Below are positions 3,273 to 29,509 of a stretch of DNA of 39,622 nucleotides, in pieces. Origin of the DNA: Chromatiaceae bacterium. GTDB taxonomy: Bacteria > Pseudomonadota > Gammaproteobacteria > Chromatiales > Chromatiaceae. The notes below the pieces were generated by a model. It had not been told where the DNA came from. It searched no databases and worked only from the letters and a program-made list of their open reading frames with translations. The stretch is taken from assembly GCA_007693535.1 (NCBI GenBank), contig REDK01000134.1, positions 1 through 39,622 of the forward strand. The letters are read 5' to 3'. Both the position numbers and the translations under genes were made by a program. Within the stretch, counting starts at the first letter, position 1. Every line of letters begins with the position of its first letter.

Positions 3273-4937
3273 ATGGAACCCTCGCCGGAGCATCCCGTGA
3301 CCACCGCTCAGCAATCCCTCGAGAACAGTCAGCAGGTGGTCGCCAATGCCGTCGCCGAGTTCCTGCGGGCACCGCCCCCAGGCACCCCGCCTGAGGTCCT
3401 GCATACCCTGACCCTGATGGCTGGCAAGGCCGGTGATCCGTTGCCGCCGCGGCTCTATTTCGAGACCGTCGAGCAGGCCCCGGTGGCCATCTCCATCACC
3501 GATGCCGGCGCCCGTATCCTCTATGCCAATGCCGCCTTCGAGGCCCTCACCGGCTACAGCCGCGCGGAGGTGCTGGGCAAGAACGAGTCCATCCTCTCCA
3601 GCAATGCCACCCCGGCCACCCTCTACCGGCAGATGTGGCGCACCATCCAGCGCCGTCAGGCCTGGACCGGCACCCTGGTCAACCGGCGCAAGGACGGCGA
3701 CGAATACCTGGCCGAACTGATGATCTCACCGGTTCTCAAGCGGACCGGTGAGGTCGCCTATTTCCTTGGCATGCATCGTGACGTGACGCGCGAGCATGAG
3801 CTGGCCGCAGCCCTGCGACAGCAGAAGGCACGCATCGAGACCGTGCTCGATGCCGCCCCGGCCTTGGTGGTGCTGCTGGGTCCGGACGGGCGCATCATCC
3901 TCGACAACATGGAATACAAGAAGCTGCTCGGCGACCTGCGCGGGCGCGAGCCGGTGATGCTGCTGCGCCAGGCGATCCGCGAGCAGGCGGGCTTCGATCC
4001 ACTCGATCATGCCGTCGCCGGCCAGGGCTTCCAGAACGTCGAGATCAGCCTGGAGATGCCCGGCGGTGGCCCGCGCTGGTTCGCCTGCTCCGGAACCGCG
4101 GTCAATGAGTTCGATACCAGCGCACGCAGCTTCTTTGGCCGCGACGGCGCCGGCGAGGGACGCCTGCTGCTGCTGGCCAACGACGTCACCGCCCGTCACC
4201 GCGAGATCGAGCGTGCCCATCTGGAGAACCTGCGCGCGCGGCTGGCCGAACAGCAACTGGCCCAGGGCATGCGCGAGGCCCTGGCCGCGGCCAGCTATCA
4301 GATCCAGGTGCCACTGAATCTGATCCGTGCCGCCAATGCGATGTTTGCCAGCGGCGGCGGCAGCGTCGCCACCGTCGCCGACATGCTCAGTCAGATCACC
4401 CGCGCCAGCGAGCAGGCCTTGACCATGTTGCAGGCCGCTTTGCCTCCCGAGGTCAGCGAGGCCGGCGTCAGCGTCAACGTCAATGAGCTGCTGCGCCACG
4501 TGCTGGTCCTGGAGACCGATTCCCTGCTCGCCGCTGGCGTGGTGGTGGACTGGCAGCCAGCGCTGGTGCTGCCAGAGATCACCGGGCGCAAGAACGAACT
4601 GCGCTCGCTGTTCAAGAACCTCATCGACAATGCCCTGCAGGCCCTGCGCGAGGGTGGGCGCGCCAATCGGGAACTGCGCCTCGCCACTCGCGCCCTCGAC
4701 GATGCCGTGGAGGTGATCGTCGAGGACAACGGCCCCGGCTTTCCGCGCAACGACCGCTACAAGGCCTTCGAGCCTTTCTATATCGGCTGGCGCAATCGGC
4801 GCGGGCGTGCCGGCATGGGCCTGGCGATGGCTCAGGAGATCGTTAACCAGCACAATGGTAGTATCGAGATCGACCCCGACTACCATGACGGCTGCCGGCT
4901 CCGGGTGACCCTCGGCGATGCGGCCCTTCCCGACTGA
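3273..4937 (+). CDS. nifL: NifL, redox/nitrogen-sensing anti-activator of NifA
   Basis: Flavoprotein that binds and inhibits NifA under oxygen or fixed-nitrogen excess. The 554-residue protein has an N-terminal PAS domain (about 63-175, FETVEQAPVAISITDAG to FLGMHRDVTREHE) expected to bind FAD. A second PAS-like domain spans about 190-310, followed by a helical linker and a GHKL ATPase domain. The latter shows NELRSLFKNLIDNALQAL (N box), VEDNGPGFP and GRAGMGLAMAQEIVNQHNG. The helix where a kinase would carry its phospho-accepting histidine reads SYQIQVPLNLI with no histidine, so it should act by protein-protein contact. An in-frame GTG at 3297 has GGAG six nt upstream and is a good alternative start; ATG 3273 has no clear Shine-Dalgarno. 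It overlaps or abuts nifA, matching the required stoichiometric coupling. Confidence 0.93.
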   Translation: MEPSPEHPVTTAQQSLENSQQVVANAVAEFLRAPPPGTPPEVLHTLTLMAGKAGDPLPPRLYFETVEQAPVAISITDAGARILYANAAFEALTGYSRAEVLGKNESILSSNATPATLYRQMWRTIQRRQAWTGTLVNRRKDGDEYLAELMISPVLKRTGEVAYFLGMHRDVTREHELAAALRQQKARIETVLDAAPALVVLLGPDGRIILDNMEYKKLLGDLRGREPVMLLRQAIREQAGFDPLDHAVAGQGFQNVEISLEMPGGGPRWFACSGTAVNEFDTSARSFFGRDGAGEGRLLLLANDVTARHREIERAHLENLRARLAEQQLAQGMREALAAASYQIQVPLNLIRAANAMFASGGGSVATVADMLSQITRASEQALTMLQAALPPEVSEAGVSVNVNELLRHVLVLETDSLLAAGVVVDWQPALVLPEITGRKNELRSLFKNLIDNALQALREGGRANRELRLATRALDDAVEVIVEDNGPGFPRNDRYKAFEPFYIGWRNRRGRAGMGLAMAQEIVNQHNGSIEIDPDYHDGCRLRVTLGDAALPD

Positions 4938-4953
4938 GGCAGTACCAGGCCCC

Positions 4954-6579
<1,626 letters not shown>

Positions 6580-15261: not shown

Positions 15262-16914
15262 ATGCCGCCAGGACTGCATCCGGTCAGCACGCAAGGCCGG
15301 CCTGGACCGCAACCCCTGCGCGCCGATGCCCGCCTGCGCCTGGAGGCCGAGGCCTGCCTGCCCCGGCGCTTTCCGCAGGTCAGTTGCCCGCACTGTGCCG
15401 CTGCCTGTCCCACCGGGGCGTTGCGCATGACCCGCGGCGGGCCGGTCCTGGGCACTGGTTGCGTCGACTGCGGACAGTGCGTCGCCCCGTGCCCGAGCGG
15501 CGCCCTGCACCTGCCGGGCCTGGGGTCGCCGCCGAGCGTCGCGGCCATCGGTGCCAGTACCAGCATCGCGATCGATTGCTGGCGGGTGCCAAGCGGGGCG
15601 GCGCCGGGCGCGCCCGGACCGGGGACCGCCAGTGGGCTGCCGCCGGCCGATTCCGCTGCCCAGCACGACCGGCCCGGCCCGGCGGCGGCTGAGCGACCCT
15701 GGTCGCTCGCGACCCTGATGCAGCGCGTGCGCGGGAACCTGCCCGCGACCGGCGCCGATCGCCAGCAGACCCACCAGGGCCCACCAGGGCACCTGCAATG
15801 GCGCGTTCCCTGCCTGGGTGCCTTGACCCCGACCTGGCTGCTGGAAATCATGGTCAATGCCGCTGGCCGTCCGCTTCTGTTGCAGGACCGCGGCCTCTGC
15901 GCCGACTGTCCAGCCGGCGGCGCTCGCCATCCGGCGGTTCCGGCCCTGGCCCGCTGTCATCATCTCCTGGCCGCGATCGGGCTGCCGGCGGCCCGCTGGC
16001 CACGATTGCAGCCGGGGCGGTCAGGTGCGGCGGGTGCTGCCGCACCCCGGGCCGGCGGCCAGGCACCGGAACCGCTGCTGGAGGCGCGCCTGAGTCGGCG
16101 CATGCTGCTGACCGGTGGCGCGGCGCCAGTCGCGGGTGCCAGAGATGTCGGTCGCGTCGCGGACGGCGCAGCGGCCGCCCCCTCGTCGTCTGATCCTGCT
16201 GACAATCCCATGCCCGAACAGGTACAGGAACAGGTACAGGTGCCTGAGCGGGCGTCCGACCGCGCCCGCGACCGTGCGCGCCTGCTTGCCGCCCTGCAGC
16301 GGCTGGCCGCGGAGCGGCCGCCCGCGCTGGAATCGCGTCCAGCTCCGCCTGCTGGCGCCCCGGCCGGAGCTACCGTCGGCCCCGCTGGCCGCCCCCGCAC
16401 CGATCCGGTTGCCGAGTTGGCCGCAGGCCTGACCCCCAGCCTGCAGGCCAGCGCCGCCTGCGCCGATCATCGCGTCTGCGCCAGCGCCTGCCCAACCGGC
16501 GCCCTGCGCGGTTATCGCAACGCGCAGGGCCAGGGTCTGTGCTTCGATCCGACCGCCTGCACCGGCTGCACCCTCTGTGTGCAGCTGTGCCCGACTCAGG
16601 CCCTACACCTGGCCGACAGCCACCTGGCCACCGGCCACCTCGCCATTGATAGCCCGGGCGCGGCGCCCGCCGCCGCGCGCCCACTCACCCGTTTCCAGGT
16701 CCACACCTGCCCAGACTGCGGTGCACTGCACAGCGGCCTCGAGGCCCGCTGTAGTGCGTGCGATGCGGATCGGGCCTTCGCCCGCGATGCCTTCCGCAGT
16801 CTGTTCGGCGGCGCGCCGGCGCCGGCCGCCGATCCCGGCCGCGATTTAACCGCAGCCGACCCTGCTCCCCCCGGTGAGCACCGCGCCGGCCCGGTGGCCG
16901 GCGTTATTCGATAA
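15262..16914 (+). CDS. arxB': ArxB'-like multi-cluster Fe-S protein
   Basis: First gene of the operon, 550 residues, with GAGG 7 nt before the ATG. The N-terminal half has CPHCAAACP (42-50) and CVDCGQCVAPCP (67-78). These are followed by a second type of cysteine region, RVPCLGALTPTWLLE (about 181-195) and LCADCPAGG (212-220). The C-terminal half has another ferredoxin pair, CADHRVCASACP and CTGCTLCVQLCP, then a zinc-ribbon-like CPDCG...CSACD. Arx operons are described as arxB'ABCD with such an Fe-S protein ahead of arxA, and position supports that name here. The exact role (electron transfer or cofactor delivery) is not known to me. An LSRRMLLTGGAA segment at about 277-288, preceded and followed by low-complexity Ala/Gly/Pro sequence, looks like a Tat-type motif in mid-protein, as if two proteins had been fused. 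Confidence 0.75.
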   Translation: MPPGLHPVSTQGRPGPQPLRADARLRLEAEACLPRRFPQVSCPHCAAACPTGALRMTRGGPVLGTGCVDCGQCVAPCPSGALHLPGLGSPPSVAAIGASTSIAIDCWRVPSGAAPGAPGPGTASGLPPADSAAQHDRPGPAAAERPWSLATLMQRVRGNLPATGADRQQTHQGPPGHLQWRVPCLGALTPTWLLEIMVNAAGRPLLLQDRGLCADCPAGGARHPAVPALARCHHLLAAIGLPAARWPRLQPGRSGAAGAAAPRAGGQAPEPLLEARLSRRMLLTGGAAPVAGARDVGRVADGAAAAPSSSDPADNPMPEQVQEQVQVPERASDRARDRARLLAALQRLAAERPPALESRPAPPAGAPAGATVGPAGRPRTDPVAELAAGLTPSLQASAACADHRVCASACPTGALRGYRNAQGQGLCFDPTACTGCTLCVQLCPTQALHLADSHLATGHLAIDSPGAAPAAARPLTRFQVHTCPDCGALHSGLEARCSACDADRAFARDAFRSLFGGAPAPAADPGRDLTAADPAPPGEHRAGPVAGVIR

Positions 16915-16965
16915 GCAAAAGGGCCGCATGGCCCCGACCATCCACCATCAGAGGAGACCATCGCG

Positions 16966-19473
16966 ATGGAGTCCATCGACACCAGGCTTTCCCGTCGGCG
17001 CTTTCTGCAGGCGACCGGCACGGCCAGCGCCCTGGGGGCGGCTGGCCTCGGCACCGGCCTCGGCACCGGCCTGCTGACTACCCTGCGCCCGGCCAGCGCC
17101 CAGGCCAACGATCCGGCCGGCGCCGATCCACCACAGACCCGGATCACCAAGAACATCTGCCATCAATGCCCGGCCCGCTGCGGCATCGATGTCTATACCA
17201 CCGACGGGCGCGTGCATGCGATCTATGGCAGCACCGAGCATCCCATCTCTAATGGCAAGCTCTGTCCCAAGGGGCCGCTCGGCACCTACATCCTCTATGA
17301 CCCAGACCGCTTCAAGGGACCGATGAAACGCACCAATCCCAACAAGGGGCGCGATGTCGATCCCGGCTTCGTGCCCATCTCTTGGGACGAGGCCCTCGAT
17401 ACCGTCGCTGCCCGACTCAACCGGCTGCGCCGCGCGGGTGAGTCCCATCGCTTCGCGCTGGTCTATGGGCGCGGCTGGGGTGCCTCCTGCGCCGGGCTGC
17501 AAGGGGCCTTCGGTCAGCTCTACGGTTCGCCCAATGTCGCTATCGGCCATTCCTCGATGTGCTCCGATGGCAGCATCATCGCCAAGAAGGCGCTGGATGG
17601 GGTCGGCGGCTACAATGCCTATGACTATGCCAATGCGAACATGCTGCTGATGTTCGGGGTTGGCTTCCTAGAGGCCTTCCGCCCCTATAACAACAATATG
17701 CAGGTCTGGGGCTATATCCGCGGGGTCAAGGTGCCGAAGACGCGCATCACTGCGGTGGATATCCATCTCAATACCACCCTGGCCGGAGCCGACCGGGCGC
17801 TACTGATCAAGCCCGGCACCGATGGCGCACTAGCCCTGGCCATTGCCCATGTGATCCTGACCGAAGGGCTCTGGGAGCGATCCTTCGTCGGCGACTTCCG
17901 CGACGGTGAGAATCGGTTCCGGGCTGGCGAGCGGGTCAGTCCGGCCCTGTTCGAGGAGAAATGGGTGCGCGGCCTGGTGGACTGGTGGAACCTCGAACTC
18001 AAGGACCGTACCCCAGCCTGGGCGGCCGAGATCACCGATCTCTACGAGCGCGACATCCTGGCCACCGCGCGCGAGTTCGGTTCCACCCGCCCGAGCATTG
18101 CCCTGTTCGAGCGCGGCGCCCATGCGCATTCCAATGGCGTGTTGAACGGCATGGCGATCCATGCGCTCAACGCCCTGGTCGGCTCGCTCTATGCCGAGGG
18201 TGGGCTCATGGGCCAGATGGGGCCCTCCTATGGGCCACTGCCGGTCGCGGCGGATGATTTCAAGGACGACTATGCCCGCAACGGCCCCTGGCAGGATCAG
18301 CCGCGCATCGATCTCAAGGGCGATCCCGACGGCTATCTGCTGGCCAACAACATGCTGCAGGAACTGGGGCCCAACTCCCTGGCCGGGCGGCCCTACAAGC
18401 TTGACACGGTGATGTTCTATCAGGCCAATCCGATCTGGACCGCGCCCAATGGCCAGGTCTGGGAGCAGGCCATGCAGGAGCTGTTCATCATCGACACGTC
18501 GCCTTTCCCCGGCGAGACCGCGATGTTCGCGGACCTAGTCCTGCCGGATCATACCTATCTGGAGCGGCTGCAGGATGCGCCGACTTATCCCTTCCAGGGT
18601 TGGCCGCTGACACAGTTGCGAGTGCCGGCGATCGAACCCCTTTACGACACCAAGTATTACGGCGATGTGCTGATTGAGATCGGTAAGCGCATCGACGGGC
18701 CGATGGGTGACTATTATAAGGTGCTCGACAATACCGAGAACCTGCTGCGCCATCTCGCCAAGGGCTTCGAGACCGACCCCGGCGACAATGGTGTCAACGA
18801 CTTCGAGTCCTGGAAAGAGAAGGGGGTCTGGTATAAGCGGCCCTATATCTATCGCCAGGTCAATGGCGAGTTCCGCAAATGGGACGGGCAGGGCTACAAC
18901 CTGGTCCTGACCGACGAGGAGGTCAAGGAGCAGTTGTTCAAGACTGCCTCCGGGTGCTTTGAACTTCGCTCAGGCTGGCTCGCCGAGCATGCCGACTGGA
19001 TCGTTGAAAAGACCGGTCGCGACCGCCGCAAGCTGATGTTCCCACACTGGGAGGAGCCGGTGCATCCCGGTGGCGGCGATCTCTATATGGTCACACCCAA
19101 GGTGGCGATGCATGCCGAGGGGCGTGGGGCCAATATTCCGGTCGCGATCGCTACGCTGCAACCGGTGCTCGGCGGGCGCAGCACCGCCTATATCGAGGTC
19201 AATCCCGCCACTGCGCGGGCGCGCGGGATCGCCGATGGGGCGCGAGTCCGCCTGGTCTCTGATGTGGGCAGCATCGAGGGGTACTGCAAGTATTTCGAGG
19301 GTTGCCGTCCGGATACCATCGTCTTTCCGATGGAGCATGGTCATTGGGCGCATGGGCGCTGGGCCCGCGGGCGCCTGCCCGGGCATTGCGGAGAGATCAC
19401 CGTCAATCAGTCCGACCGCATCACTGGGCAGTGCAGCTACTACACCACCAAGGTCCGCCTGGAGCCAGCGTGA
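16966..19473 (+). CDS. arxA: ArxA-type molybdopterin oxidoreductase (probable anaerobic arsenite oxidase)
   Basis: Catalytic subunit of the DMSO-reductase family, 835 residues, exported folded by Tat (SRRRFLQATG at 9-18). A [4Fe-4S] site C65-x2-C68-x3-C72-x27-C100 precedes the bis-MGD domains. The probable molybdenum ligand is Cys199 in GHSSMCSDGS. The segment YGRGWG (167-172) matches the XGRGWG motif reported as diagnostic of ArxA and distinct from ArrA. Flanking segments such as HQCPARCGIDVYTTDGR and EAFRPYNNNMQ fit my memory of Arx proteins. It would oxidise arsenite to arsenate in the periplasm and pass electrons to ArxB and ArxC. A good Shine-Dalgarno (GAGGAG) precedes ATG 16966. Alternatives are a polysulfide, tetrathionate or arsenate reductase; the five-gene order B'-A-B-C-D and the motif favour Arx. 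Confidence 0.82.
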   Translation: MESIDTRLSRRRFLQATGTASALGAAGLGTGLGTGLLTTLRPASAQANDPAGADPPQTRITKNICHQCPARCGIDVYTTDGRVHAIYGSTEHPISNGKLCPKGPLGTYILYDPDRFKGPMKRTNPNKGRDVDPGFVPISWDEALDTVAARLNRLRRAGESHRFALVYGRGWGASCAGLQGAFGQLYGSPNVAIGHSSMCSDGSIIAKKALDGVGGYNAYDYANANMLLMFGVGFLEAFRPYNNNMQVWGYIRGVKVPKTRITAVDIHLNTTLAGADRALLIKPGTDGALALAIAHVILTEGLWERSFVGDFRDGENRFRAGERVSPALFEEKWVRGLVDWWNLELKDRTPAWAAEITDLYERDILATAREFGSTRPSIALFERGAHAHSNGVLNGMAIHALNALVGSLYAEGGLMGQMGPSYGPLPVAADDFKDDYARNGPWQDQPRIDLKGDPDGYLLANNMLQELGPNSLAGRPYKLDTVMFYQANPIWTAPNGQVWEQAMQELFIIDTSPFPGETAMFADLVLPDHTYLERLQDAPTYPFQGWPLTQLRVPAIEPLYDTKYYGDVLIEIGKRIDGPMGDYYKVLDNTENLLRHLAKGFETDPGDNGVNDFESWKEKGVWYKRPYIYRQVNGEFRKWDGQGYNLVLTDEEVKEQLFKTASGCFELRSGWLAEHADWIVEKTGRDRRKLMFPHWEEPVHPGGGDLYMVTPKVAMHAEGRGANIPVAIATLQPVLGGRSTAYIEVNPATARARGIADGARVRLVSDVGSIEGYCKYFEGCRPDTIVFPMEHGHWAHGRWARGRLPGHCGEITVNQSDRITGQCSYYTTKVRLEPA

Positions 19474-19618
19474 ATCGCTGCCCGGACGCCGGCCTGCGGC
19501 GGCTGCATGGCCCTGCTGGCACATCAGTGCCGGCCCAACCCAATACTTGTGCGGCACCGCCGCTCCGGGCCAGCGGGCCGCCGTGCCTGCCAAAGAACAT
19601 CCGCGGAGTATCTGAATC

Positions 19619-20467
19619 ATGGCGAAATGGGGAATGGTCATCGACCTCGACACGTGCACTGGCTGCCAGGCCTGCACGACTGCCTGTACCATGGAGAACA
19701 GCCGCTTGCCCGGAGAGAGCTGGCAGGATGTGCTGTTCTATCATGAGGGCACCTATCCAAACGTGAAGCTGATGTGGTTCCCGCGCCCCTGCATGCATTG
19801 TGAGAACCCGTCCTGCGTCACCGTCTGCCCGACCAAGGCCACCTATAAGGACCCGGAGGGCGGCTTCGTGCTGATGGACTACAACCGCTGCATCGGCTGT
19901 AAGTATTGCCAGATCGCCTGCCCCTATGGTGTGCGTTTTTCGATGGACGAGCGGGCCTTCGTCAAGCCCGATATCCGCCAGGTCTTTCCCAGCGGCGACG
20001 GCCGTCAGTGGAACCCACCCTACCAGGCACCGCAGGATGATCCTGGTCGCGGCATCGGCATCCAGCCCCATGGCGTGGTTTCCAAGTGCACCTTTTGCTA
20101 TCACAAGGTCAGCCAGGCGCCAGCCGGGGTCGCCGATCTCGACGAGGACGTCCCGGAACTGAAGGAATATGTCCCAGCCTGCGTGCGGGTCTGCCCACCC
20201 AAGGCGCGCTTCTTCGGCGATCTCGATCAGCCACAGAGCACCGTGAACCGGCTCATCGCCGACAAGCGCGGTGTGCGCCTGAAGGATGAGACGGGCAACA
20301 AGCCGCAGGTCTATTACCTGTCGGGCGGGGCGACGGCGGCGGTGCCCTCGTTGCGCAGTATGGCCGCAGCCACCGTGCCGACTGGTCCCTTCAGCCCGCC
20401 CCAACGCGCGCCCGACACCGGGGCGATCGCGGCGCACTCCGCGGATTGGACCGCGGACCAGGCCTAA
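19619..20467 (+). CDS. arxB: ArxB-type four-cluster ferredoxin subunit
   Basis: Electron-transfer subunit of the molybdoenzyme, 282 residues, DmsB/PsrB/ArrB type. Cysteine motifs for four [4Fe-4S] clusters are seen: CTGCQACTTAC (13-23), CMHCENPSCVTVCP (58-71), CIGCKYCQIACP (91-102), and the split pair CTFC with CVRVCP in the last third. No signal peptide is present, so it should travel with the Tat-exported ArxA. The segment VRFSMDERAFVKPDIRQVFP and the stretch up to CTFC form an insertion between clusters. The final 45 or so residues are low-complexity. The 145-bp gap after arxA and 15-bp gap before arxC indicate one operon. Confidence 0.88.
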   Translation: MAKWGMVIDLDTCTGCQACTTACTMENSRLPGESWQDVLFYHEGTYPNVKLMWFPRPCMHCENPSCVTVCPTKATYKDPEGGFVLMDYNRCIGCKYCQIACPYGVRFSMDERAFVKPDIRQVFPSGDGRQWNPPYQAPQDDPGRGIGIQPHGVVSKCTFCYHKVSQAPAGVADLDEDVPELKEYVPACVRVCPPKARFFGDLDQPQSTVNRLIADKRGVRLKDETGNKPQVYYLSGGATAAVPSLRSMAAATVPTGPFSPPQRAPDTGAIAAHSADWTADQA

Positions 20468-20482
20468 GCGGAGGCAATCGCA

Positions 20483-21631
20483 ATGAATATCGAGCAAACC
20501 CGACGACTCAGCGAGAAGCAGTTCGCCATCATGTTCGCGGCCCTGTGCGGGCTGCTGGTGGTGGGCGGTATTGTCATCCATAACTTGGCGGTCTATGGCC
20601 ATGCCGCCTTCAATCTGGATAACCGCGGGCTGTTCTGGGGCCTACCCATCATCGTCTACGACTATTTTCTGCTGACCTCGACCGGGCTGGCAATGATCGC
20701 GGCGCTGGCCATCGTCTTCAATGCCGAAGAGTTCCGCCCGGTGCTGAAACGGGCGGTCTGGCTCGCCCTGGCCGGCCTGGTCGGTGGCGTTGCGGTCTTG
20801 ATGCTGGAGCTGGGCCATCCGCTGCGCGCACTCTGGGCCATCCCCTTCAGCTTCGCCTTCAGCTCGCCACTGTACTGGAAGGTCATGGCGGTGAGCTTCT
20901 ATGTCGTCTCGCTGCTGCTGCTGCTATGGCGACTGCTGACCCCGGGCTGGACCATGCCGGCGCTGCGCACCCATGCCCTGATCACCCTGGTACTGGCCTT
21001 CGCCGTCACCGCGATCGCCGGGGTGGTCTATGGCTCGCAGAGTTTCCGCCCGTTCTGGGCCTCGGGGGATATCCCCGTGGCCTTCTTCTTCGAGTCGCTG
21101 CTCGGCGGGCTCGCGTTCATCTATTTCTTCAGCTACCTCGGCTATGCCTTTAATCCCGCGTTGATGCCGGATAACTTGCGCCGGCTATTCGACGAGCGCA
21201 TGCCAGCGTTGCTGTCGTTGGCGATCTTCATCCATCTGCTGTTCGTGCTCGCGCGCCTGACCAGCGGCCTCTACGGTAATCTTGAGGGGTTGCAGGTCTG
21301 GCAGCATCTCGCGCGCTCGCCATTGCTGTATCTGGAGCTGTTCGTGGGCCTGCTGCTGCCGCTGGTGCTGCTGATGCTGCCGGCCACCCGGACCCGGCCC
21401 TGGGCGCAGATCCTCGCCTCGCTGCTGGTGATGAATGCGCTGCTGATCGCCCGCTTCGAATACATCATCGGCGGGCAACTGGTGCCGCTGTTCAAGGGCG
21501 CCTGGGCGCCGGACCTGCTGCACTACGCGCCGTCGGCAACCGAATGGCTGCTGCTGTTAGTGGCGATCTTCCTCTCCAACGCAGTCAACGCCTTTGGTGA
21601 GATGCGCCTGCACCTGGGCCAGGAGGCCTGA
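20483..21631 (+). CDS. arxC: ArxC, NrfD/PsrC-type membrane subunit
   Basis: Integral membrane subunit, 382 residues with about nine to ten hydrophobic helices, such as FAIMFAALCGLLVVGGIVIH, LTSTGLAMIAALAIVFNAE, LITLVLAFAVTAIAGVVYGS and LLPLVLLMLPAT. It belongs to the NrfD family, which binds menaquinone or ubiquinone and exchanges electrons with the Fe-S subunit. In Arx it is the expected exit to the quinone pool. In a phototroph this would feed cyclic electron flow. AGGC a few nt upstream and tight spacing to arxB support coupled translation. Confidence 0.88.
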   Translation: MNIEQTRRLSEKQFAIMFAALCGLLVVGGIVIHNLAVYGHAAFNLDNRGLFWGLPIIVYDYFLLTSTGLAMIAALAIVFNAEEFRPVLKRAVWLALAGLVGGVAVLMLELGHPLRALWAIPFSFAFSSPLYWKVMAVSFYVVSLLLLLWRLLTPGWTMPALRTHALITLVLAFAVTAIAGVVYGSQSFRPFWASGDIPVAFFFESLLGGLAFIYFFSYLGYAFNPALMPDNLRRLFDERMPALLSLAIFIHLLFVLARLTSGLYGNLEGLQVWQHLARSPLLYLELFVGLLLPLVLLMLPATRTRPWAQILASLLVMNALLIARFEYIIGGQLVPLFKGAWAPDLLHYAPSATEWLLLLVAIFLSNAVNAFGEMRLHLGQEA

Positions 21632-21776
21632 CCGCAACTGTCGCGGGGCTGTCTTGGGGGCCAGGGATGGCCAGCTGCCGATGGGCTGGTGCGGGATGGG
21701 TTTCGCTTCGCTCGACCCGTCCTGCGAACCGGCCGTCGCCGGCGCCGCCAGTTCCACCCTCAGCCATGCTTGCCGA

Positions 21777-22712
21777 ATGATGATGCCTGCCATGACCGAT
21801 CCCGTGCCCGAACCGCCGGCGCTGCTCGCCGATTGCGCCGCCTTCTATCTCTGTATGGCGCGGGCCTTTGCCGTCCCCGATCGCCCGCAGGCGTTGACCC
21901 TGCTGGCGGCGGACCTGCCCGCGGACCTCACCGAGCTGGCCACGAGCTGCGTGCTGCCCATCGCCCCGGCCCTGGCCGACTATCGCCGGGCCATCGGCGC
22001 CGTCGCCGATCAGCCGGCCCTGCTGCGCCTGTATGCCCGGCTGTTCCTGGTCCCGGGCGTTGCCCATCCCAACCTGAACACCGGCAGCTATCTGGACGGC
22101 GGCCACGCCGGCGGCAGTGTTGCCGCCCTGGCCGACATCTACCGCCGCTGCGGTCTGGAACCGGACCCTGGTTTGCGCGACCTGCCCGATCATCTCAGCG
22201 TGCAACTGGAGTTCCTCGCCTGGCTGCTGATGGGCGCGGCCGATGCGGCGGGCGGGAGCGACCCGGATCGGCTGCCGCCGGTGTCGGCCGGCGTGTTCCT
22301 GGCCAGCGTCGTGGCCCACTGGGTGGGGCCGTTTCGCGCCGATCTGGCCGCCGCCGGGCCTCGTTTCGGGTTAGCCGCCAATCCCTACCTGGCGCTGGCG
22401 TGCATCCTGGAGTGCGCGGTGCAGAACGACCTCGCGCGCCTGGCGGCGACCGGGCAGCCTGACGTCGGACGCTCGGACGCCGCCCACCGGCCTGACCTGG
22501 ACCCGGAGATCGCCCGGTTGCGCAGCCAGGTCGCTGGCCAGCCGATCGGCGAGCAGGACCTCGCCATCATCCGCGCGCGTCTGCAGGCGGCCGGACTGCC
22601 GAGCGGGCATGTGGCGATCCCGGTGGACGAGCGCGACCGCGTCATGGGCCTGGCGAGCATGACGCCGCCGGCCCCGCCCAGCCATCGGCAGGGTGGCCCA
22701 GGCAACGGTTGA
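21777..22712 (+). CDS. arxD: ArxD, TorD-family chaperone for the molybdoenzyme
   Basis: Cytoplasmic chaperone that holds the Tat substrate ArxA while the molybdenum cofactor is inserted. The TorD-like helical fold is suggested by LADCAAFYLCMARAFAVP, LLRLYARLFLVPG, and DHLSVQLEFLAWLLMGAADA. Several in-frame starts are possible: ATG 21777, 21780, 21783 or 21792; the last begins MTDPVPEPPALLADC and fits family N-termini best. The first two-thirds are clearly TorD-like; the C-terminal third is longer than in small TorD proteins. Position directly after the NrfD-like gene matches arxD. Confidence 0.75.
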   Translation: MMMPAMTDPVPEPPALLADCAAFYLCMARAFAVPDRPQALTLLAADLPADLTELATSCVLPIAPALADYRRAIGAVADQPALLRLYARLFLVPGVAHPNLNTGSYLDGGHAGGSVAALADIYRRCGLEPDPGLRDLPDHLSVQLEFLAWLLMGAADAAGGSDPDRLPPVSAGVFLASVVAHWVGPFRADLAAAGPRFGLAANPYLALACILECAVQNDLARLAATGQPDVGRSDAAHRPDLDPEIARLRSQVAGQPIGEQDLAIIRARLQAAGLPSGHVAIPVDERDRVMGLASMTPPAPPSHRQGGPGNG

Positions 22713-22716
22713 CCCC

Positions 22717-23352
22717 ATGTCCCCTCCGCGGTGGCCGTGCCCGCCCTGGCATCTGCGCGGGGACCGATTCAGGCGCGGGCGACGGCTGCGGTCATCGGGC
22801 CGGCCGTGGCCGGTCACCTGGCTGCTGCCCGGATGGCTATGCCTTGGTTGGTTGCTGCTGTGGCCGCTCCCGCTGGCGGCAGAGCTGAGCAGCGACGACT
22901 ATCACAGCGGCGCGGCGATCCGCTCGGAGGCCGAGCGCCAGCAGGTGCAGGCACTGATCGAGGAGGCGCGGGCACGCGAGGCCGAACGCGCTCGGCAACG
23001 CGCTGCCGCCGAACACGCGGCGGCGGCCGAACAGGCGGCGGCGGCTGCGACGGCGATGGCCCGACGCCCGCGCGGCGAGCACCTGGTAACAGTGCATTGC
23101 AGCGGCTGCCATCCCCCAGAACGGCTGGCGTTGGCCCGCCACAGTCATCTCGGCTGGGGCCTGACGCTGCTGCGGATGCGGCTGCTGCACCGTGCCCCGG
23201 TGCCGCTGGCCGATCTGGCGCCGATGATCGGCCATCTCGGTCACGTGCAGGGCGCCTCCGCGCTGCGCCTGACCCTTGAGTACGGCCTGGCCGCGCTGGC
23301 CCTGGGCCTGCCTGCCGGCTGGCTGTGGCGTCGCCGGCAGCGGCGCCGCTGA
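22717..23352 (+). CDS. Membrane-anchored protein with one heme-c motif, last gene of the arx operon
   Basis: Not a family I can name. From ATG 22717 (4 bp after the arxD stop; an in-frame ATG at 22693 would overlap arxD) it has 211 residues. An N-terminal hydrophobic stretch ending LLLWPLPLAAEL looks like a signal peptide or anchor. A charged Ala/Glu/Arg-rich helix (about 65-120) follows, probably coiled coil. Next comes VHCSGCHPPERL with a single CXXCH and a GWGLTLLRMRLLH segment whose Met may be the second heme ligand. A C-terminal membrane helix (LTLEYGLAALALGLPAGWLW) and an Arg-rich tail close it. The topology places the heme in the periplasm. Its position suggests a role in electron output from, or assembly of, the Arx complex. 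Confidence 0.7.
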   Translation: MSPPRWPCPPWHLRGDRFRRGRRLRSSGRPWPVTWLLPGWLCLGWLLLWPLPLAAELSSDDYHSGAAIRSEAERQQVQALIEEARAREAERARQRAAAEHAAAAEQAAAAATAMARRPRGEHLVTVHCSGCHPPERLALARHSHLGWGLTLLRMRLLHRAPVPLADLAPMIGHLGHVQGASALRLTLEYGLAALALGLPAGWLWRRRQRRR

Positions 23353-23688: not shown

Positions 23689-24648
23689 CTATCCCCCGAG
23701 ATAGACCTCGATCACGCGCGGGTCGTTCTGGACCTCGTCCATGCTGCCCTCGGCGAGTACGCTGCCTTGATGCAGCACGGTCACCCGCCGGGCGATCGAG
23801 CGCACGAAGTCCATGTCGTGCTCGACCACCACCACCGAATGGCGCCCGGCCAGCGACAGCAGCAGTTCGGCGGTACGGTCCATCTCCTGATGGGTCATGC
23901 CGGCGACCGGTTCGTCAACTAGTAGCAGGTGCGGATCCTGCATCAGGAGCATGCCGATCTCCAGCCACTGCTTCTGGCCATGCGACAGGGCACCGGCCGG
24001 GCGCCGGACCTGCTCGCCGAGCCCGATGATGCAGAGCACCTCGTCGATGCGGTCGCGCTGGGCCACGCGCAGGCGGGCGAACAGGGTTGGGAACACCCGC
24101 TTGTCCCCGGCCATGGCCAGCTCCAGGTTCTCGAACACCGTATGCTGTTCGAAGACCGTCGGCTTCTGGAACTTGCGGCCGATGCCGATCGCGGCGATCT
24201 CCGGTTCGCTCAGGCGCAGCAGATCGATCTTCTGGCCGAAGAAGACCGAGCCGCTGTCGGGCCGGGTCTTGCCGGTGATGATGTCCATCATCGTGGTCTT
24301 ACCGGCGCCATTAGGGCCGATCACGCAGCGTAATTCGCCGGCATCGACATAGAAGTTGAGGTGATTGATGGCGCGGAAGCCATCGAAGCTGACATTGAGG
24401 TCCTCGACGTAGAGGATCGGGCCATGGCTGACATCCAGTTCGAGGTCTTTCCACGCGACCATGAAATCGAACTGGCGGTCGCGGCGCATGGATTCGCGGA
24501 ACTGCCGCCAACTCTGTCGCATCAGGCTGGCGCGTTCGCTACGCTCGTCTGCCAGCAGTGCCAGCGACTTCTCCTCGGTGACCAGACCAAATTGGCGATC
24601 ACGGCGAATCACCTCCTGAAACCGGGCCCAGCCGGAGCGCTCGGTCAT
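23689..24648 (-). CDS. urtD: UrtD, ATPase of the urea ABC transporter
   Basis: ATP-binding subunit of the LivG-like class, 319 residues. It has Walker A IGPNGAGKTTMMDIITGKTR, Q-loop region GRKFQKPTVFEQHTVFENLE, signature LSHGQKQWLEIGMLL and Walker B LLLVDEPVAGMTHQE. LSHGQKQWLEIGMLL and GIGRKFQKPTVF are typical of UrtD rather than LivG. It carries an N-terminal extension of about 70 residues in which a motif is duplicated: WARFQEVIRRDRQF (7-20) and WRQFRESMRRDRQF (46-59). Its ATG overlaps the urtC stop by 4 nt (ATGA). It is the last gene of the operon; urtE does not follow. Confidence 0.93.
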   Translation of the reverse strand: MTERSGWARFQEVIRRDRQFGLVTEEKSLALLADERSERASLMRQSWRQFRESMRRDRQFDFMVAWKDLELDVSHGPILYVEDLNVSFDGFRAINHLNFYVDAGELRCVIGPNGAGKTTMMDIITGKTRPDSGSVFFGQKIDLLRLSEPEIAAIGIGRKFQKPTVFEQHTVFENLELAMAGDKRVFPTLFARLRVAQRDRIDEVLCIIGLGEQVRRPAGALSHGQKQWLEIGMLLMQDPHLLLVDEPVAGMTHQEMDRTAELLLSLAGRHSVVVVEHDMDFVRSIARRVTVLHQGSVLAEGSMDEVQNDPRVIEVYLGG

Positions 24649-25790
24649 GGGGTGGCCTCCGTCGCGGTATCGGGGAGCGGTGCGGTCGGCTCGCCCCGCC
24701 GCCGCCGCAGGTTGCGCATCTGCCCGGCAAGTCCGGCAATGCCTTTGGGCAAGAGCAGAGTCACCAGCACGAACAGCCCGCCGAGAGCGAACAGCCAGGC
24801 CTCCGGAAAGACCCCGGTAAACCAGGTCTTGCCATAATTGACCAGTACCGCGCCGATCACCGCCCCATAGAGGGTGGCACGCCCGCCGATGGCGACCCAG
24901 ATCACCAGTTCGATGGAATTGAGCGGGGCGAACTCGCCGGGATTGATGATCCCGACCTGGGGCACATAGAGAGCGCCGGCGATCCCCGCTAGCATGGCCG
25001 AGAAGGTGAACAGGGCGAGCTTGACCCGATCCACCCGGTAGCCGATGAAGCGCACCCGCGGCTCGGCATCGCGGATGGCGACCGCGACCCGGCCGAGGCG
25101 TGAGGTCACGATCGCGCGGCAGGCCAGATAGGCCATCGCCAACATCAGCGCCGAGATGACGAAGAGGGCGACCCGGGTGGTCCTGGCAGTGAGGTCAAAG
25201 CCGAGGATGTCCTTGAAATCGGTCAGCCCGTTATTGCCGCCGAAGCCCATCTCGTTGCGGAAGAAGGCGAGCATCAGGGCATAGGTGAGGGCCTGGGTGA
25301 TGATGGAAAGGTAGACGCCGGTGACCCGCGAGCGAAATGCCAGCCAGCCGAACACGAAGGCGAGCAGCCCTGGGACCAGCACCACCATCAGGGCGGCAAA
25401 CCAGAATTGATCGAAGCCGTGCCAGAACCAGGGCAACTCAGTGTAGTTCAGAAATACCATGAAGTCCGGCAGCACCGGATGGCCATAGACCCCGCGCTCG
25501 CCGATCTGGCGCATCAGATACATGCCCATCGCATAGCCGCCGAGGGCGAAGAAGGCGCCGTGGCCGAGGCTGAGGATGCCGAGATAGCCCCAGACCAGGT
25601 CCACCGCCAGGGCGAGCAGGGCATAGGTCAGATATTTACCCAGCAGGGTGACGGTAAAGGTGGAGACATGCCAGGGATTGTCCGCCGGCACCGCCAGGTT
25701 CAGCACCGGCACCAGGATGGCCACCAGCGCCAGCACTGCGAGCAATACCAGCCCGCCGGTATCGCCCTTCATCGATCGCAACAGGCCCAT
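24645..25790 (-). CDS. urtC: UrtC, urea ABC transporter permease
   Basis: LivM-type permease, 381 residues, with about ten membrane helices. Characteristic segments include [67 protein letters not shown] (in pieces), [40 protein letters not shown]-like sequence, and [30 protein letters not shown]. The conserved URT-type [10 protein letters not shown] and NYGKTWFT identify it as urea-specific rather than branched-chain amino acid. It forms the heteromeric channel with UrtB. 112 bp separates it from urtB; it overlaps urtD. Confidence 0.93.
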   Translation of the reverse strand: [381 protein letters not shown]

Positions 25791-25902
25791 GTTCGCTCAT
25801 CTGTATCAGGTCCGGCCGCTGGCGGGCGGCCAGGGGTTGAAGGTCACGGGGGCGGCATGCCTGGCCGCGGTCTGCTCCGAGCCGGCTGCGAGCCGGCGCC
25901 GA

Positions 25903-27780
25903 TCAGGCATCGGCCGCCCGGCCGCGTTGCGGAAACAGCCCGCGCGGGCGCTTCTGAATGAATAAGATGATCAGCACCAATACCAAGATCTTGGCCAGCA
26001 CCGCGCCGGTCCAGGGCTCCATCAGCTTATTGGCGACGCCCAGGGTCATGCCGCCGACCAGGGTCCCCCAGAGATTACCGACCCCGCCGAAGACGACCAC
26101 CATGAAGGAGTCGATGATGTAGGCTTGGCCCATGTTGGGACCGACGTTAGTCAATTGCGATAGGGCGACTCCGGCCACCCCAGCAATACCGGCCCCGAGC
26201 CCGAAGGTCAGGGCATCGACGCGCGCCGAGCGCACCCCCATCGCACGCGCCATGGCGCGGTTCTGCGCCACGGCCCGCACCTGTAACCCCAGGGCGGTGC
26301 GGCGCAGGATGAGCAAGAGCACGGCGAAGACCGCCAGCGCGAACAGCAGGATATAGATCCGGTTGTAAGTCAGCGACAGCACCGGATTGATCTGCAGCGA
26401 GCCGCTCATCCAGGTTGGGCTGGAGACCGCTACGTTCTGTGCCGACACCAGGGTGCGGACCGCCTGTTGCAGGATCAGGCTGATACCGAAGGTGGCCAGC
26501 AGGGTCTCCAGCGGGCGTCCGTACAGGAACCGGATCACGGTCTGCTCAATGACGATGCCGACCACTCCGGAGACGATGAAGGCGGCTGGCAGGGCCACCA
26601 GCAATGACCAGTCGATGGCATTCGGCAGCAGGCCCTGGACCAGATAGGTGGTGTAGGCGCCGAGCATGATGAGTTCGCCATGGGCCATATTGATCACCCC
26701 CATCACGCCGAAGCTGATTGCTAGACCAATAGCGGCCAGCACCAGCACCGAGCCCAGGCTGAGTCCGAAGAACAGGGTTTGGGCATGGCGGTTCCATTCG
26801 ATCAAGCGCTCGATATCGGCCAGCGCGGCCTGTGCGGCCGCGCGTACCTCGGCGTCGGTCTCGCTCGCGAGCAGGGTGCGCAGGGCATTGCGGGCCGGCC
26901 GCTGCAGGCTGCCGGCGAGGGCCGCGATCCCCTCCAGGCGCACTGCCGGCTCTGGGTCGCCGAGATCGGCCACGCCGATCCCGAGCTGCAGCAGCACCCG
27001 CACCTGGGCATCGTCTTCCACCGGCAGGCGCTCGCGCATCGCGGCAGCGCTGTCGGGGTCGGGGGCGGTCAGCGTCTCCTGAGCCGCGCGCAGGCGCAGC
27101 GCGGGATCGGGGCTGGCCAGGGTCAGGCGGGCGATGCCCGCACGCAGGGCGGTGCGCATCCGGTTGTTGACGACGATGCGTTTGACCTCGCGGCGGCCGA
27201 CCTGGCCCAGATCGGAACCCGTCAGCGGGTCGGTGAGCGCGAAGCCATCGCCGTGCCGGCGGGTCAGCACCACGCGATCGTCGCTCGCCCGCGCCTGCAG
27301 GTCGCCGCCGAGCAGTGCCTTGAGCAGGTCCGCGGCGCGCGGATCACCGCTGGCCGCGAGGTCGGCGACGGCCTGTTCCTTGACCGCGAAGGAGCGATCG
27401 GTGAGGGCGGCGAGGGCCGCGGCCAGATCCGCCGCCGCAGCGGCATCGTCCGCATCGGCAGGAGCGGGCGCTGCCGTTGCCAGCGCTGGCCCTGTTGCCG
27501 GTGCCGGTGCTAGTTCCGGCAGCGTGGTGGCCGCCGGTGCATCTGGCGGGGCCGGGTCCACGGTGCCAGCCAGTCCCGGCGGCGGCGCGGGCGCTGTCGG
27601 CTCTGCTACCGGCCGGCGGTCGGCGGGCGCGGCGGCCGTTGCCGAATCATCACTAGACATGAGCAGGGACTCGGCCAGCGGCTCGGCCAGGGCCAGCGAC
27701 CAGGTCAGGCACAGGCCCAGGGACCAGAGCGCGAGCCAGCGTGGCGGCGGGCGACAGGGCAGGGGCGAGGTCAGTGGCAT
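25903..27780 (-). CDS. urtB: UrtB, urea ABC transporter permease with N-terminal repeat domain
   Basis: LivH-type permease preceded by a long periplasmic domain, as is usual for proteobacterial UrtB. From ATG 27780 the protein has 625 residues: signal peptide (RWLALWSLGLCLTWSLALAEP), an unusually long Ala/Pro-rich stretch, a HEAT-like helical domain (LTDRSFAVKEQAVADLAASG and later EAAVRLEGIAAL-type repeats), then membrane helices from about residue 335. These include AISFGVMGVINMAHGELIMLGAY and GAGIAGVAGVALSQLTNVGPNMG. An in-frame ATG at 27852 is possible but would put 24 residues ahead of the signal peptide. Second gene of the operon, 107 bp from urtA if counted to 27852. Confidence 0.93.
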   Translation of the reverse strand: MPLTSPLPCRPPPRWLALWSLGLCLTWSLALAEPLAESLLMSSDDSATAAAPADRRPVAEPTAPAPPPGLAGTVDPAPPDAPAATTLPELAPAPATGPALATAAPAPADADDAAAAADLAAALAALTDRSFAVKEQAVADLAASGDPRAADLLKALLGGDLQARASDDRVVLTRRHGDGFALTDPLTGSDLGQVGRREVKRIVVNNRMRTALRAGIARLTLASPDPALRLRAAQETLTAPDPDSAAAMRERLPVEDDAQVRVLLQLGIGVADLGDPEPAVRLEGIAALAGSLQRPARNALRTLLASETDAEVRAAAQAALADIERLIEWNRHAQTLFFGLSLGSVLVLAAIGLAISFGVMGVINMAHGELIMLGAYTTYLVQGLLPNAIDWSLLVALPAAFIVSGVVGIVIEQTVIRFLYGRPLETLLATFGISLILQQAVRTLVSAQNVAVSSPTWMSGSLQINPVLSLTYNRIYILLFALAVFAVLLLILRRTALGLQVRAVAQNRAMARAMGVRSARVDALTFGLGAGIAGVAGVALSQLTNVGPNMGQAYIIDSFMVVVFGGVGNLWGTLVGGMTLGVANKLMEPWTGAVLAKILVLVLIILFIQKRPRGLFPQRGRAADA

Positions 27781-27959
27781 CGGGGGCACCGGAGGGCGAA
27801 CAAAAGGCCGGCCGCTCGGCCGGGCGCTGGCAGGATTCTGGCACGACGCCATGCGCGCAACCGGCGACCTGGTTGGCGAACCGTGCTGGTGCGTGACGCG
27901 TGCCGTCGCACCGCCGGCGCCGACCGTGCGAGTCGGCGCCGGGCGGGCAGCGGGCGCGC

Positions 27960-29429
27960 TTATTCGGCCGCCGTGGTGGCGCCGGTCCCGAGGCAGGTTT
28001 GGGTGCGGGTGTTGAAATTGCCGCAGCGGATCGGGTCGGTCCAGTCGGCGATCAGCTCCCGGGAGCCTTCCAGATAATCGGACCAGGCATCGCCAGGCAC
28101 CTCCTCATCGGTCTGCCAGACGACGGCGAACTGACCATCATCCTGGATCTCGCCGATCAGCACCGGCTTGGTGATGTGATGGTTGGGCAGCATCTCGGCG
28201 GTGCCACCGGTGAGGTTCGGAGTGCTCAGGCCAATGATCGCATCATGCACTGCATCGGTCGCGGTGGTGCCAGCCTTCTCCACCGCCTGTGCCCAGAGAT
28301 TGAAGCCGATGTAATGGGCCTCCATCGGATCATTGGTGACACGCCTGGGGTCCTTGATGAACTCGTGCCATTGGGCGATGAAGGCCTCGTTCTCCGGGGA
28401 GTCCACGCTCATGAAGTAGTTCCAGGCCGCAAGATGCCCGACCAGCGGTCCAGTATCGATGCCCGAGAGTTCCTCCTCGCCCACCGAGAAGGCCACCACC
28501 GGGATCTCGTCGGCATTGATGCCCTGATTGCCGAGTTCGATGTAGAAGGGGACATTGGCATCGCCATTGATGGTCGAGACCACCGCGGTCTTCTTGCCCT
28601 CGGAGCCGAACTTCTTGATGTCGGCGACGATCGACTGCCAGTCGGCATGCCCGAACGGGGTGTAGTTGATCATGATGTCCTCATCGGCCACCCCGTTCTG
28701 CTTCAGGTAGGCCTCAAGGATACGATTGGTAGTGCGCGGGTACACGTAGTCGGTGCCGGCCAGCACCCAGCGCTCCACGCCCAGTTCATCCTTGAGATAA
28801 TCGACCGCCGGGATCGCCTGCTGATTGGGCGCGGCGCCAGTGTAGAAGATGTTGCGCGAGGATTCCTCGCCCTCGTATTGCACCGGATAGAACAGGAGTC
28901 CGTTCAATTCCTCGAACACTGGCAGTACCGCCTTGCGCGAGACCGAGGTCCAGCAGCCGAACACCACGTCAACCTTGTTGCGCTCAAGCAGCTCGCGCGC
29001 GCGCTCGGCGAACAGCGGCCAGTCCGAGGCCGGGTCCACCACCACCGCCTCCAGCTTGCGCCCGAGCAGCCCGCCCTTCTTGTTCTGCGCCTCCACCAGC
29101 ATCACCACGGTGTCCTTGAGGGTGGTCTCGCTGATGGCCATGGTGCCCGAGAGGCTGTGCAGCACGCCGACCTTGATCGGGTTGGACGCATCCGGGGCGT
29201 TGCCTTCCTCGGGTACCACCGGAGTCGCCCAGGGTGCGCCCGGCAAGACCAGCAGGGCGGCGGCCAGGAGCAGGCCGAACCAGAGGCCGGGGCGGGCCAC
29301 CGACCAGGCAGCGGGCCAGGCCCCGACCTCAATTGGCATCGGATCGGACCGCCGAGCGGAGACTCGGGCTTGGGCAGAAACGGGGCGCGCGCGCCGCGTG
29401 GCCGAGCGGGGGCGGAGGGTCTGTCGCAT
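27960..29429 (-). CDS. urtA: UrtA, periplasmic urea-binding protein
   Basis: Substrate-binding protein of the Leu/Ile/Val-type class specific for urea or short amides. ATG 29429 is chosen because GGAGA lies 7 nt upstream; it gives 489 residues. A long Arg-rich N-region precedes the hydrophobic signal segment LWFGLLLAAALLVLPGAPWA. The mature part has IKVGVLHSLSGTMAISETTL, DPASDWPLFAERARELL, VFGCWTSVSRKAVLPVFEE and LLFYPVQYEGEESSRNIFYTGAAPNQQ, all hallmark UrtA sequences. The N-region is odd in length and composition; a shorter start at the MPIEVG methionine is possible. It is the promoter-proximal gene, under a sigma-54 promoter. Confidence 0.95.
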   Translation of the reverse strand: MRQTLRPRSATRRARPVSAQARVSARRSDPMPIEVGAWPAAWSVARPGLWFGLLLAAALLVLPGAPWATPVVPEEGNAPDASNPIKVGVLHSLSGTMAISETTLKDTVVMLVEAQNKKGGLLGRKLEAVVVDPASDWPLFAERARELLERNKVDVVFGCWTSVSRKAVLPVFEELNGLLFYPVQYEGEESSRNIFYTGAAPNQQAIPAVDYLKDELGVERWVLAGTDYVYPRTTNRILEAYLKQNGVADEDIMINYTPFGHADWQSIVADIKKFGSEGKKTAVVSTINGDANVPFYIELGNQGINADEIPVVAFSVGEEELSGIDTGPLVGHLAAWNYFMSVDSPENEAFIAQWHEFIKDPRRVTNDPMEAHYIGFNLWAQAVEKAGTTATDAVHDAIIGLSTPNLTGGTAEMLPNHHITKPVLIGEIQDDGQFAVVWQTDEEVPGDAWSDYLEGSRELIADWTDPIRCGNFNTRTQTCLGTGATTAAE

Positions 29430-29494
29430 GAATGGCTCTCCAGTCAGTGATGGCAGTCGACAAGGCAGTGGCGGCCACTGCCTGGGGAAGGTAA

Positions 29495-29509
29495 GCAACC
29501 CTTATGCCA
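29495..29509 (-). promoter_or_regulatory. sigma-54 (-24/-12) promoter for urtABCD
   Basis: The minus strand reads TGGCATAAGGGTTGC, with GG-N10-GC and intact TTGC. The predicted start is near 29483, giving a 54-nt leader to urtA. It shares the TGGC-N7-TTGCT pattern with the rnf and nifL promoters in this window. Confidence 0.7.

Follow-up and report, generated by a model that had tools for sequence, protein, structure and literature searches.

Does the contig REDK01000134.1 of a Chromatiaceae bacterium (assembly GCA_007693535.1) encode an anaerobic arsenite oxidase of the Arx type, and if so, along which route would the electrons of arsenite enter the metabolism of its host? Positions 1-39,622 of the forward strand were analysed, and this whole stretch is called the window below. 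It contains an intact arxB2-A-B-C-D operon on the forward strand (15262-22712), as seen in the open reading frame listing and in Pfam searches. Our data indicate that it is very probably a functional arx operon, which would feed a light-driven metabolism. Judged by sequence, its core enzyme does not differ from an ordinary ArxA; the two features that had gone unnoted are that arxXSR is missing at the locus and that a recurrent cytochrome gene is present. The preliminary description of this DNA had treated 15262-23352 as an operon of five genes. The five genes and their order and positions were borne out, all being open on the forward strand, but the last 0.64 kb form a sixth gene that had gone unmentioned. 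The features of the locus are as follows.

15262-16914, forward strand: arxB2 (arxB'), ferredoxin-like protein of 550 amino acids (aa) whose 4Fe-4S motifs lie around residues 42-82 and 399-453; the start codon is uncertain
16966-19473, forward strand: arxA, molybdopterin arsenite oxidase of 835 aa with a Tat-type (twin-arginine translocation) N terminus
17464-17481, forward strand: YGRGWG, the ArxA marker that replaces the (R/K)GRY of ArrA; ArxA residues 167-172
17560-17562, forward strand: Cys199, the presumed molybdenum ligand, within GHSSMCSDGS
19619-20467, forward strand: arxB, polyferredoxin subunit of 282 aa with four 4Fe-4S motif groups
20483-21631, forward strand: arxC, NrfD/PsrC-type membrane subunit of 382 aa with 10 hydrophobic segments
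21777-22712, forward strand: arxD, TorD/NarJ-like chaperone; frame open from 21594
22717-23352, forward strand: candidate sixth arx gene, monoheme cytochrome c with one CXXCH haem domain; a GTG start at 22693 is also possible

Pfam places Fer4 in 15262-16914 and 19619-20467, Molybdop_Fe4S4, Molybdopterin and Molydop_binding in 16966-19473, NrfD in 20483-21631 and Nitrate_red_del in the frame 21594-22712. The intergenic gaps along arxB2-A-B-C-D are 51, 145, 15 and 145 bases if the start of arxD is taken as 21777; the likely start is 21777 or 21792, and homology in most relatives begins at about residue 60-90 of the frame from 21594. The large subunit carries SRRRFLQ at its N terminus, recognised by eye as a Tat-type motif and in keeping with the Tat export proposed earlier, followed by C65, C68, C72 and C100 of a 4Fe-4S motif. 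YGRGWG stands exactly at residues 167-172, as had been reported. According to PMC6549141, XGRGWG is a marker of ArxA that lies near the catalytic pocket, as against (R/K)GRY in ArrA. In our alignment GRGWG occurs in all 86 ArxA rows (84 of them distinct) and in neither of the two ArrA rows, both of which read RGR-Y; these counts, like the tree below, leave out L011 (G238), a fragment of 547 aa that lacks the motif region. The residue at the presumed ligand position, Cys199, is Cys in the same 86 rows, which supports the earlier assignment with molybdenum binding itself still a prediction. ArxB has 16 Cys in four groups each led by CxxC, consistent with the four clusters ascribed to it. Position 204 of ArxA is Ile in the window and Lys in both ArrA rows; we rejected the idea that a residue other than Lys there signals altered function, since I, V, M or Q occupies the position in 48 of the 86 ArxA rows.

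Relatives of ArxA were collected from genome contigs, and the best 80 of 138 loci, among which A. ehrlichii MLHE-1 does not figure, were kept. Identity to the window enzyme at these 80 loci is 60-86%, so that chance matching is not an issue. The closest are Thiocapsa imhoffii DSM 21303 (86%), Thiocapsa sp. UBA6158 (85%) and the Chromatiaceae metagenome-assembled genome (MAG) CSSed11_194 (84%), followed by Thiodictyon sp. (78%) and Ectothiorhodospira shaposhnikovii DSM 243T (77%); Tepidimonas, Hydrogenophaga, Aromatoleum, Halomonas, Thioalkalivibrio and others are also represented. One of these loci (L033, JAFPBO010000043.1) is an arx cluster with arxXSR in a MAG labelled Loktanella sp. from the rectum of dairy cattle, an unexpected habitat. 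A plasmid collection gave one ArxA match above 60%, that of Cereibacter azotoformans ORIO (74%). The order arxA-B-C is kept in 72 of the 72 loci where all three match, at 73 of 80 loci arxB2 has a match no more than 2.5 kb upstream of arxA, and the identity of ArxB is 63-90% over the 73 loci with matches of at least 200 residues. It was also observed that ArxB2 (550 aa) has two ferredoxin-like regions about 300 residues apart, the ORIO protein at the same place being 347 aa long.

The assignment to ArxA made in the preliminary description held in a phylogeny, for which the comparison suggested there was largely run. The tree had 93 rows: the window, four ArxA from the genome sample, the 80 named loci, ORIO, two ArrA-family rows (L097 and L098), the KH32C enzyme, PhsA and three paralogues from the window's own genome. 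TtrA, SrrA and AioA rows, and the ArxA of A. ehrlichii MLHE-1, PHS-1 and BSL-9, are outside this set, TtrA and AioA being compared by profile score. The trees are quick searches whose support is that of the SH-like approximate likelihood ratio test (SH-aLRT) in place of a bootstrap, and the outgroups other than ArrA sit on very long branches. The window enzyme clusters with T. imhoffii, UBA6158 and the sequence shared by CSSed11_194 and G006, a sampled genome of the window's genus whose ArxA row is identical to that of the MAG (SH-aLRT 99). Thiodictyon joins this cluster next, together with two Ectothiorhodospira and two MAGs of Burkholderiales (SH-aLRT 96). All 86 ArxA rows form one group (SH-aLRT 92) with ArrA outside, and the split between the two has a support of 100 in a tree of 88 rows with the ArrA rows as sole outgroup. 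In a class sample of 369 genomes, five including the window's own have arxA at E<=1e-120.

Comparison with known systems shows where the window departs from them. The arxB2ABCD operon of Ectothiorhodospira (E. shaposhnikovii DSM 243T, and PHS-1 and BSL-9 as known from papers) has the same gene order, the same ArxA motif and a phototrophic purple sulfur host, but the window belongs to Chromatiaceae and has no arxXSR at the locus; it also has a cytochrome gene after arxD, which was found neither at the locus nor elsewhere in the genome of E. shaposhnikovii. T. imhoffii DSM 21303 and Thiocapsa sp. UBA6158, with the nearest ArxA, share the order B2ABCD, and both have arxXSR, unlike the window. UBA6158 has the cytochrome, like the window, whereas it was not found in T. 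imhoffii, whose contig stops 560 bases after the match to arxD. C. azotoformans ORIO has B2ABCD like the window, but its operon is plasmid-borne, is preceded by XSR-like genes in the same orientation and has no such cytochrome. The ORIO operon (L099, NZ_CP089969.1) has ars genes as neighbours, and the plasmid that carries both is typed as conjugative, which makes it a possible vehicle for spread.

The activity of Arx, its direction, the electron route, a benefit for growth and light-driven arsenite oxidation are all predictions from these genes. ArxD would load the molybdenum cofactor into ArxA, which would then be exported together with ArxB by the Tat pathway. In the periplasm ArxA would oxidise arsenite to arsenate and pass the electrons through the Fe-S clusters of ArxB to the NrfD-type ArxC and on to the quinone pool; electrons would probably also go to the monoheme cytochrome c whose gene follows arxD and which is itself probably membrane-bound. 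Under illumination, the electrons of arsenite would feed the photosynthetic chain and support the fixation of CO2 or N2. The host had been described as a probably phototrophic gammaproteobacterium. Our data support the first point and confirm the second: the genome has three matches to Photo_RC (reaction-centre genes) above the cut-off, and it shares its genus with G006, which matches the Chromatiaceae MAG CSSed11_194.

There is not quite an even chance that Arx serves for detoxification or as a supplementary source of electrons, so that arsenite would be oxidised in the light without growth on arsenite alone. This is a sub-case of the reading given above and supposes no other enzyme. According to PMC5370401 for E. 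shaposhnikovii DSM 243T and PMC8877833 for H. halophila, both oxidised As(III) but failed to grow when it was the sole donor. An ACR3 arsenite pump is present in the window's genome (contig C176, 16181-17167), and no arxXSR was found at the locus. The ACR3 frame itself (L130, G000:C176) has a further peculiarity, as it runs on into a C-terminal HlyD-type domain; the open frame is 605 aa long, and a slice of 457 aa scores above the Pfam cut-offs for both SBF and HlyD_3. No match to AioA above the family cut-off was found in the genome.

The regulators deserve a closer look. E. shaposhnikovii and the two Thiocapsa have arxXSR next to arx. Within the window, ORIO ArxX and ArxS have no match and ArxR matches the nifA region alone. 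In the genome as a whole the ORIO ArxX query found nothing, and the T. imhoffii ArxX query, which gives 4e-188 with itself and 3e-158 with its UBA6158 homologue, found two partial matches alone (2e-5 and 2e-4). Frames of 822 aa (L110, G000:C32:13613-13951) and 784 aa (L111, G006:C107) with weak partial similarity to ArxX lie off the arx contigs. Thus, as far as these searches reach, the usual sensor system is missing at the arx locus of the window, as in H. halophila SL1. A position of arxXSR near arx is common but not universal; H. halophila SL1 is without them and yet oxidises arsenite (PMC6549141).

The product of the sixth gene is a protein of 211 aa, which opens with a hydrophobic segment followed by a charged stretch, has one CXXCH and, after it, conserved GW and RM (C..CH...GW...RM), and closes with a weakly hydrophobic segment and a basic tail; the Met of the RM is a possible distal haem ligand. 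The gene was sought on both strands at 81 loci, namely the 80 genome-contig loci and the ORIO locus. Of these, 15 have no arxD match, seven have fewer than 1200 bases after it and 59 have room for the gene. The profile was built, with the window excluded, from 19 rows downstream of arxD at the scanned loci, which match by construction; the non-builders that match are L023, L026, L037, L057, L063 and the window, the last at 2e-18 and at the same position as in relatives. The cytochrome is present at 21 of the 59 loci where 1200 bases or more follow the arxD match and at three of the seven with less (L024, L026 and L050).

Could this cytochrome be no more than a bystander, or a c-type cytochrome of general use that has no part in arsenite oxidation? 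We consider this unlikely, though with a real chance of being correct, and it is probable that the cytochrome is functionally linked to arx as part of the operon. In all 24 carriers it lies downstream of arxD on the same strand, and a second copy was not found in the available flanks. The open frame starts within about 15 bases of the arxD stop or overlaps it in 20 of the 24, but in the other four (L023, L028, L029 and L070) 450-650 bases separate the two, which favours a bystander, as does a haem domain of widespread fold. In 18 genomes or records a full-length match was found only beside arx in the window genome, UBA6158, Thiodictyon and M. celere, so that in these four the copy at arx is the sole full-length one. 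Weaker partial matches occur in Aromatoleum tolulyticum (3e-14 at best), T. sulfidiphilus (6e-9) and the congener G004 (4e-4), and no match was found in T. imhoffii, G006, two Ectothiorhodospira, Billgrantia montanilacus and the ORIO plasmid. That T. imhoffii and G006, the latter of the window's genus, carry arx with no cytochrome found speaks for the bystander, although their contigs stop 560 and 202 bases, respectively, after the match to arxD. Among the 369 genomes of the class sample, with up to nine candidates per genome scored, there was one other haem-domain match (G120, 9e-11), and the four other arx carriers gave no cytochrome match at 1e-10, which on so few candidates is weak evidence. 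The cytochrome also diverges together with ArxA: over 21 loci the identities of the two proteins are correlated (Mantel r 0.58, with 0 of 2000 permutations as high), and kinship of the organisms could contribute to this correlation.

Several results weigh against a functional operon in which this cytochrome has its place. The regulators arxXSR are not at the locus, and ArxX is represented in the genome by weak partial matches, the genome-wide search having covered ArxX and not ArxS or ArxR. The C-terminal anchor of the cytochrome is weak in the window, where the best mean hydropathy over 19 residues is 1.29; this value is at least 1.5 in 18 of 24 relatives and below 1.5 in six. The cytochrome is absent from 38 of the 59 loci with room, including those of E. 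shaposhnikovii and ORIO, from which it follows that Arx can do without it. Across the ArxA tree the presence of the cytochrome shows little clustering, with 17 changes against a mean of 20 for shuffled states (28 of 300 shuffles as low), and it would thus be gained or lost easily. The many loci without it and the number of changes also favour the bystander. The count is 17 without L013 and 18 when L013 is scored as lacking the cytochrome.

What the cytochrome might do is suggested by its relatives. Dehyd-heme_bind of Pfam matches 19 of 21 members, the window member falling below the cut-off. SorB (NF052246) matches 20 of the 21 aligned members at E<=0.01 (best 9.7e-10) with no match to the window member, and TIGR03908 matches 20 of 21; for the window member it is the sole family listed, at 18.9 bits with 274 required. 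In the PDB the haem domain resembles quinohemoprotein amine dehydrogenase (QHNDH) at 1e-10, SorB at 1e-7, 3a9f at 2e-5 and 7uea chain C at 1e-4, the last two of which we take to be green-sulfur reaction-centre cytochromes. The likeness to SorB, to the alpha subunit of QHNDH and to these two is distant, and the arx cytochromes differ from them in a long charged N-terminal region, in having mostly a C-terminal hydrophobic segment and in their linkage to arx. The build envisaged for them is a haem domain like that of SorB, preceded by a long charged stalk and in most cases followed by a membrane anchor at the C terminus. SorB accepts electrons from a molybdoenzyme, and this suggests a like role for the arx cytochrome. 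It is a tentative and rather doubtful proposal that many arx operons, that of the window among them, have a sixth structural gene, whose monoheme cytochrome would receive electrons from ArxAB and pass them on to c-type cytochromes feeding the reaction centre or a terminal oxidase, bypassing the quinone pool and ArxC; our estimate of such direct transfer was lowered slightly because of the weak anchor in the window protein.

Two further alternatives concern the core enzyme. It is very improbable that it is a respiratory arsenate reductase like ArrA or works mainly in that direction. ArrA is indeed its nearest solved relative (6cz7, 354 bits) and its best NCBIfam match (NF041714), but that match reaches 404 of the 1600 bits required, and the ArrAB reductase forms a sister family with a separate clade. 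Identity to the two ArrA-family rows is 31%, GRGWG stands in place of (R/K)GRY, and those rows fall outside the ArxA clade. Sampling of ArrA in the trees is thin, consisting of L097 and L098: the search of 143 class genomes gave no ArrA match above the cut-off, and that of 398 phylum genomes gave L097 above the NCBI cut-off (1742 bits) and L098 below it (1110 bits). A polysulfide, thiosulfate or tetrathionate enzyme, as a purple sulfur bacterium might suggest, is just as implausible: it would belong to the same wider family, and PhsA (235 bits) and 2vpw (167 bits, listed as thiosulfate reductase) do match, but the scores are far below the cut-offs of PhsA (694) and TtrA (36 of 1750 bits), the PhsA row (L101), the KH32C enzyme (L100) and the three paralogues (L102-L104) lie far outside on long branches, and arxA is rare, unlike a core sulfur gene (at E<=1e-100 in two of 55 related genomes, the window's own and G006). 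With AioA (TIGR02693) at 19 of 359 bits, the identities ArrA, AioA, PhsA and TtrA are ruled out by profile cut-offs, and ArrA and PhsA by the tree as well.

The surroundings of the operon contain the following genes.

3273-4937, forward strand: nifL (TIGR02938, 545 bits, cut-off 242)
4918-6579, forward strand: nifA (TIGR01817, 703 bits, cut-off 529)
23689-29498, reverse strand: urtABCD urea ABC transporter, convergent with arx

The nitrogen-fixing habit proposed earlier is suggested by NifL and NifA, both above curated cut-offs, in a search that did not extend to nifHDK. A TauD-type dioxygenase and a Usp protein are the upstream neighbours of arx, and the convergent urtABCD follows downstream. 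The arx operon stands directly beyond urtD, and urtE was not seen between urtD and arx, the search being confined to the window; this junction may mark the point at which arx was inserted. UrtB (25903-27852) is 649 aa long, with the permease as its C-terminal half and a match to HEAT repeats ahead of it. Rfam at gathering thresholds gave no match in the window.

The physiology of phototrophs with arx is treated in PMC5064118, PMC5370401 and PMC8877833. Those encountered in print are Ectothiorhodospira, Halorhodospira and Cereibacter; C. azotoformans ORIO is called a photoarsenotroph in a title cited in PMC11321003, and a Rhodobacter strain appears in one cited title with its enzyme not confirmed. 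Among the matches listed, titles and abstract openings hold no description of arx in Chromatiaceae or of an arx-linked cytochrome, in a search that left subscription journals mostly uncovered. The main text of PMC6549141 mentions neither 'Chromatiaceae' nor 'Thiocapsa'; its figure 4, which was not viewed, draws hypothetical genes in grey, and the cytochrome gene may be there unnamed.

The presence of arx in Chromatiaceae, including the named strain T. imhoffii DSM 21303, makes light-driven arsenite oxidation directly testable in this family. If the cytochrome is indeed an electron acceptor of Arx, it would add to the quinone-reducing role that is predicted for ArxC in PMC5370401. It might also be relevant to the puzzle, stated in PMC8877833, that some phototrophs with arx oxidise arsenite but do not grow on it.

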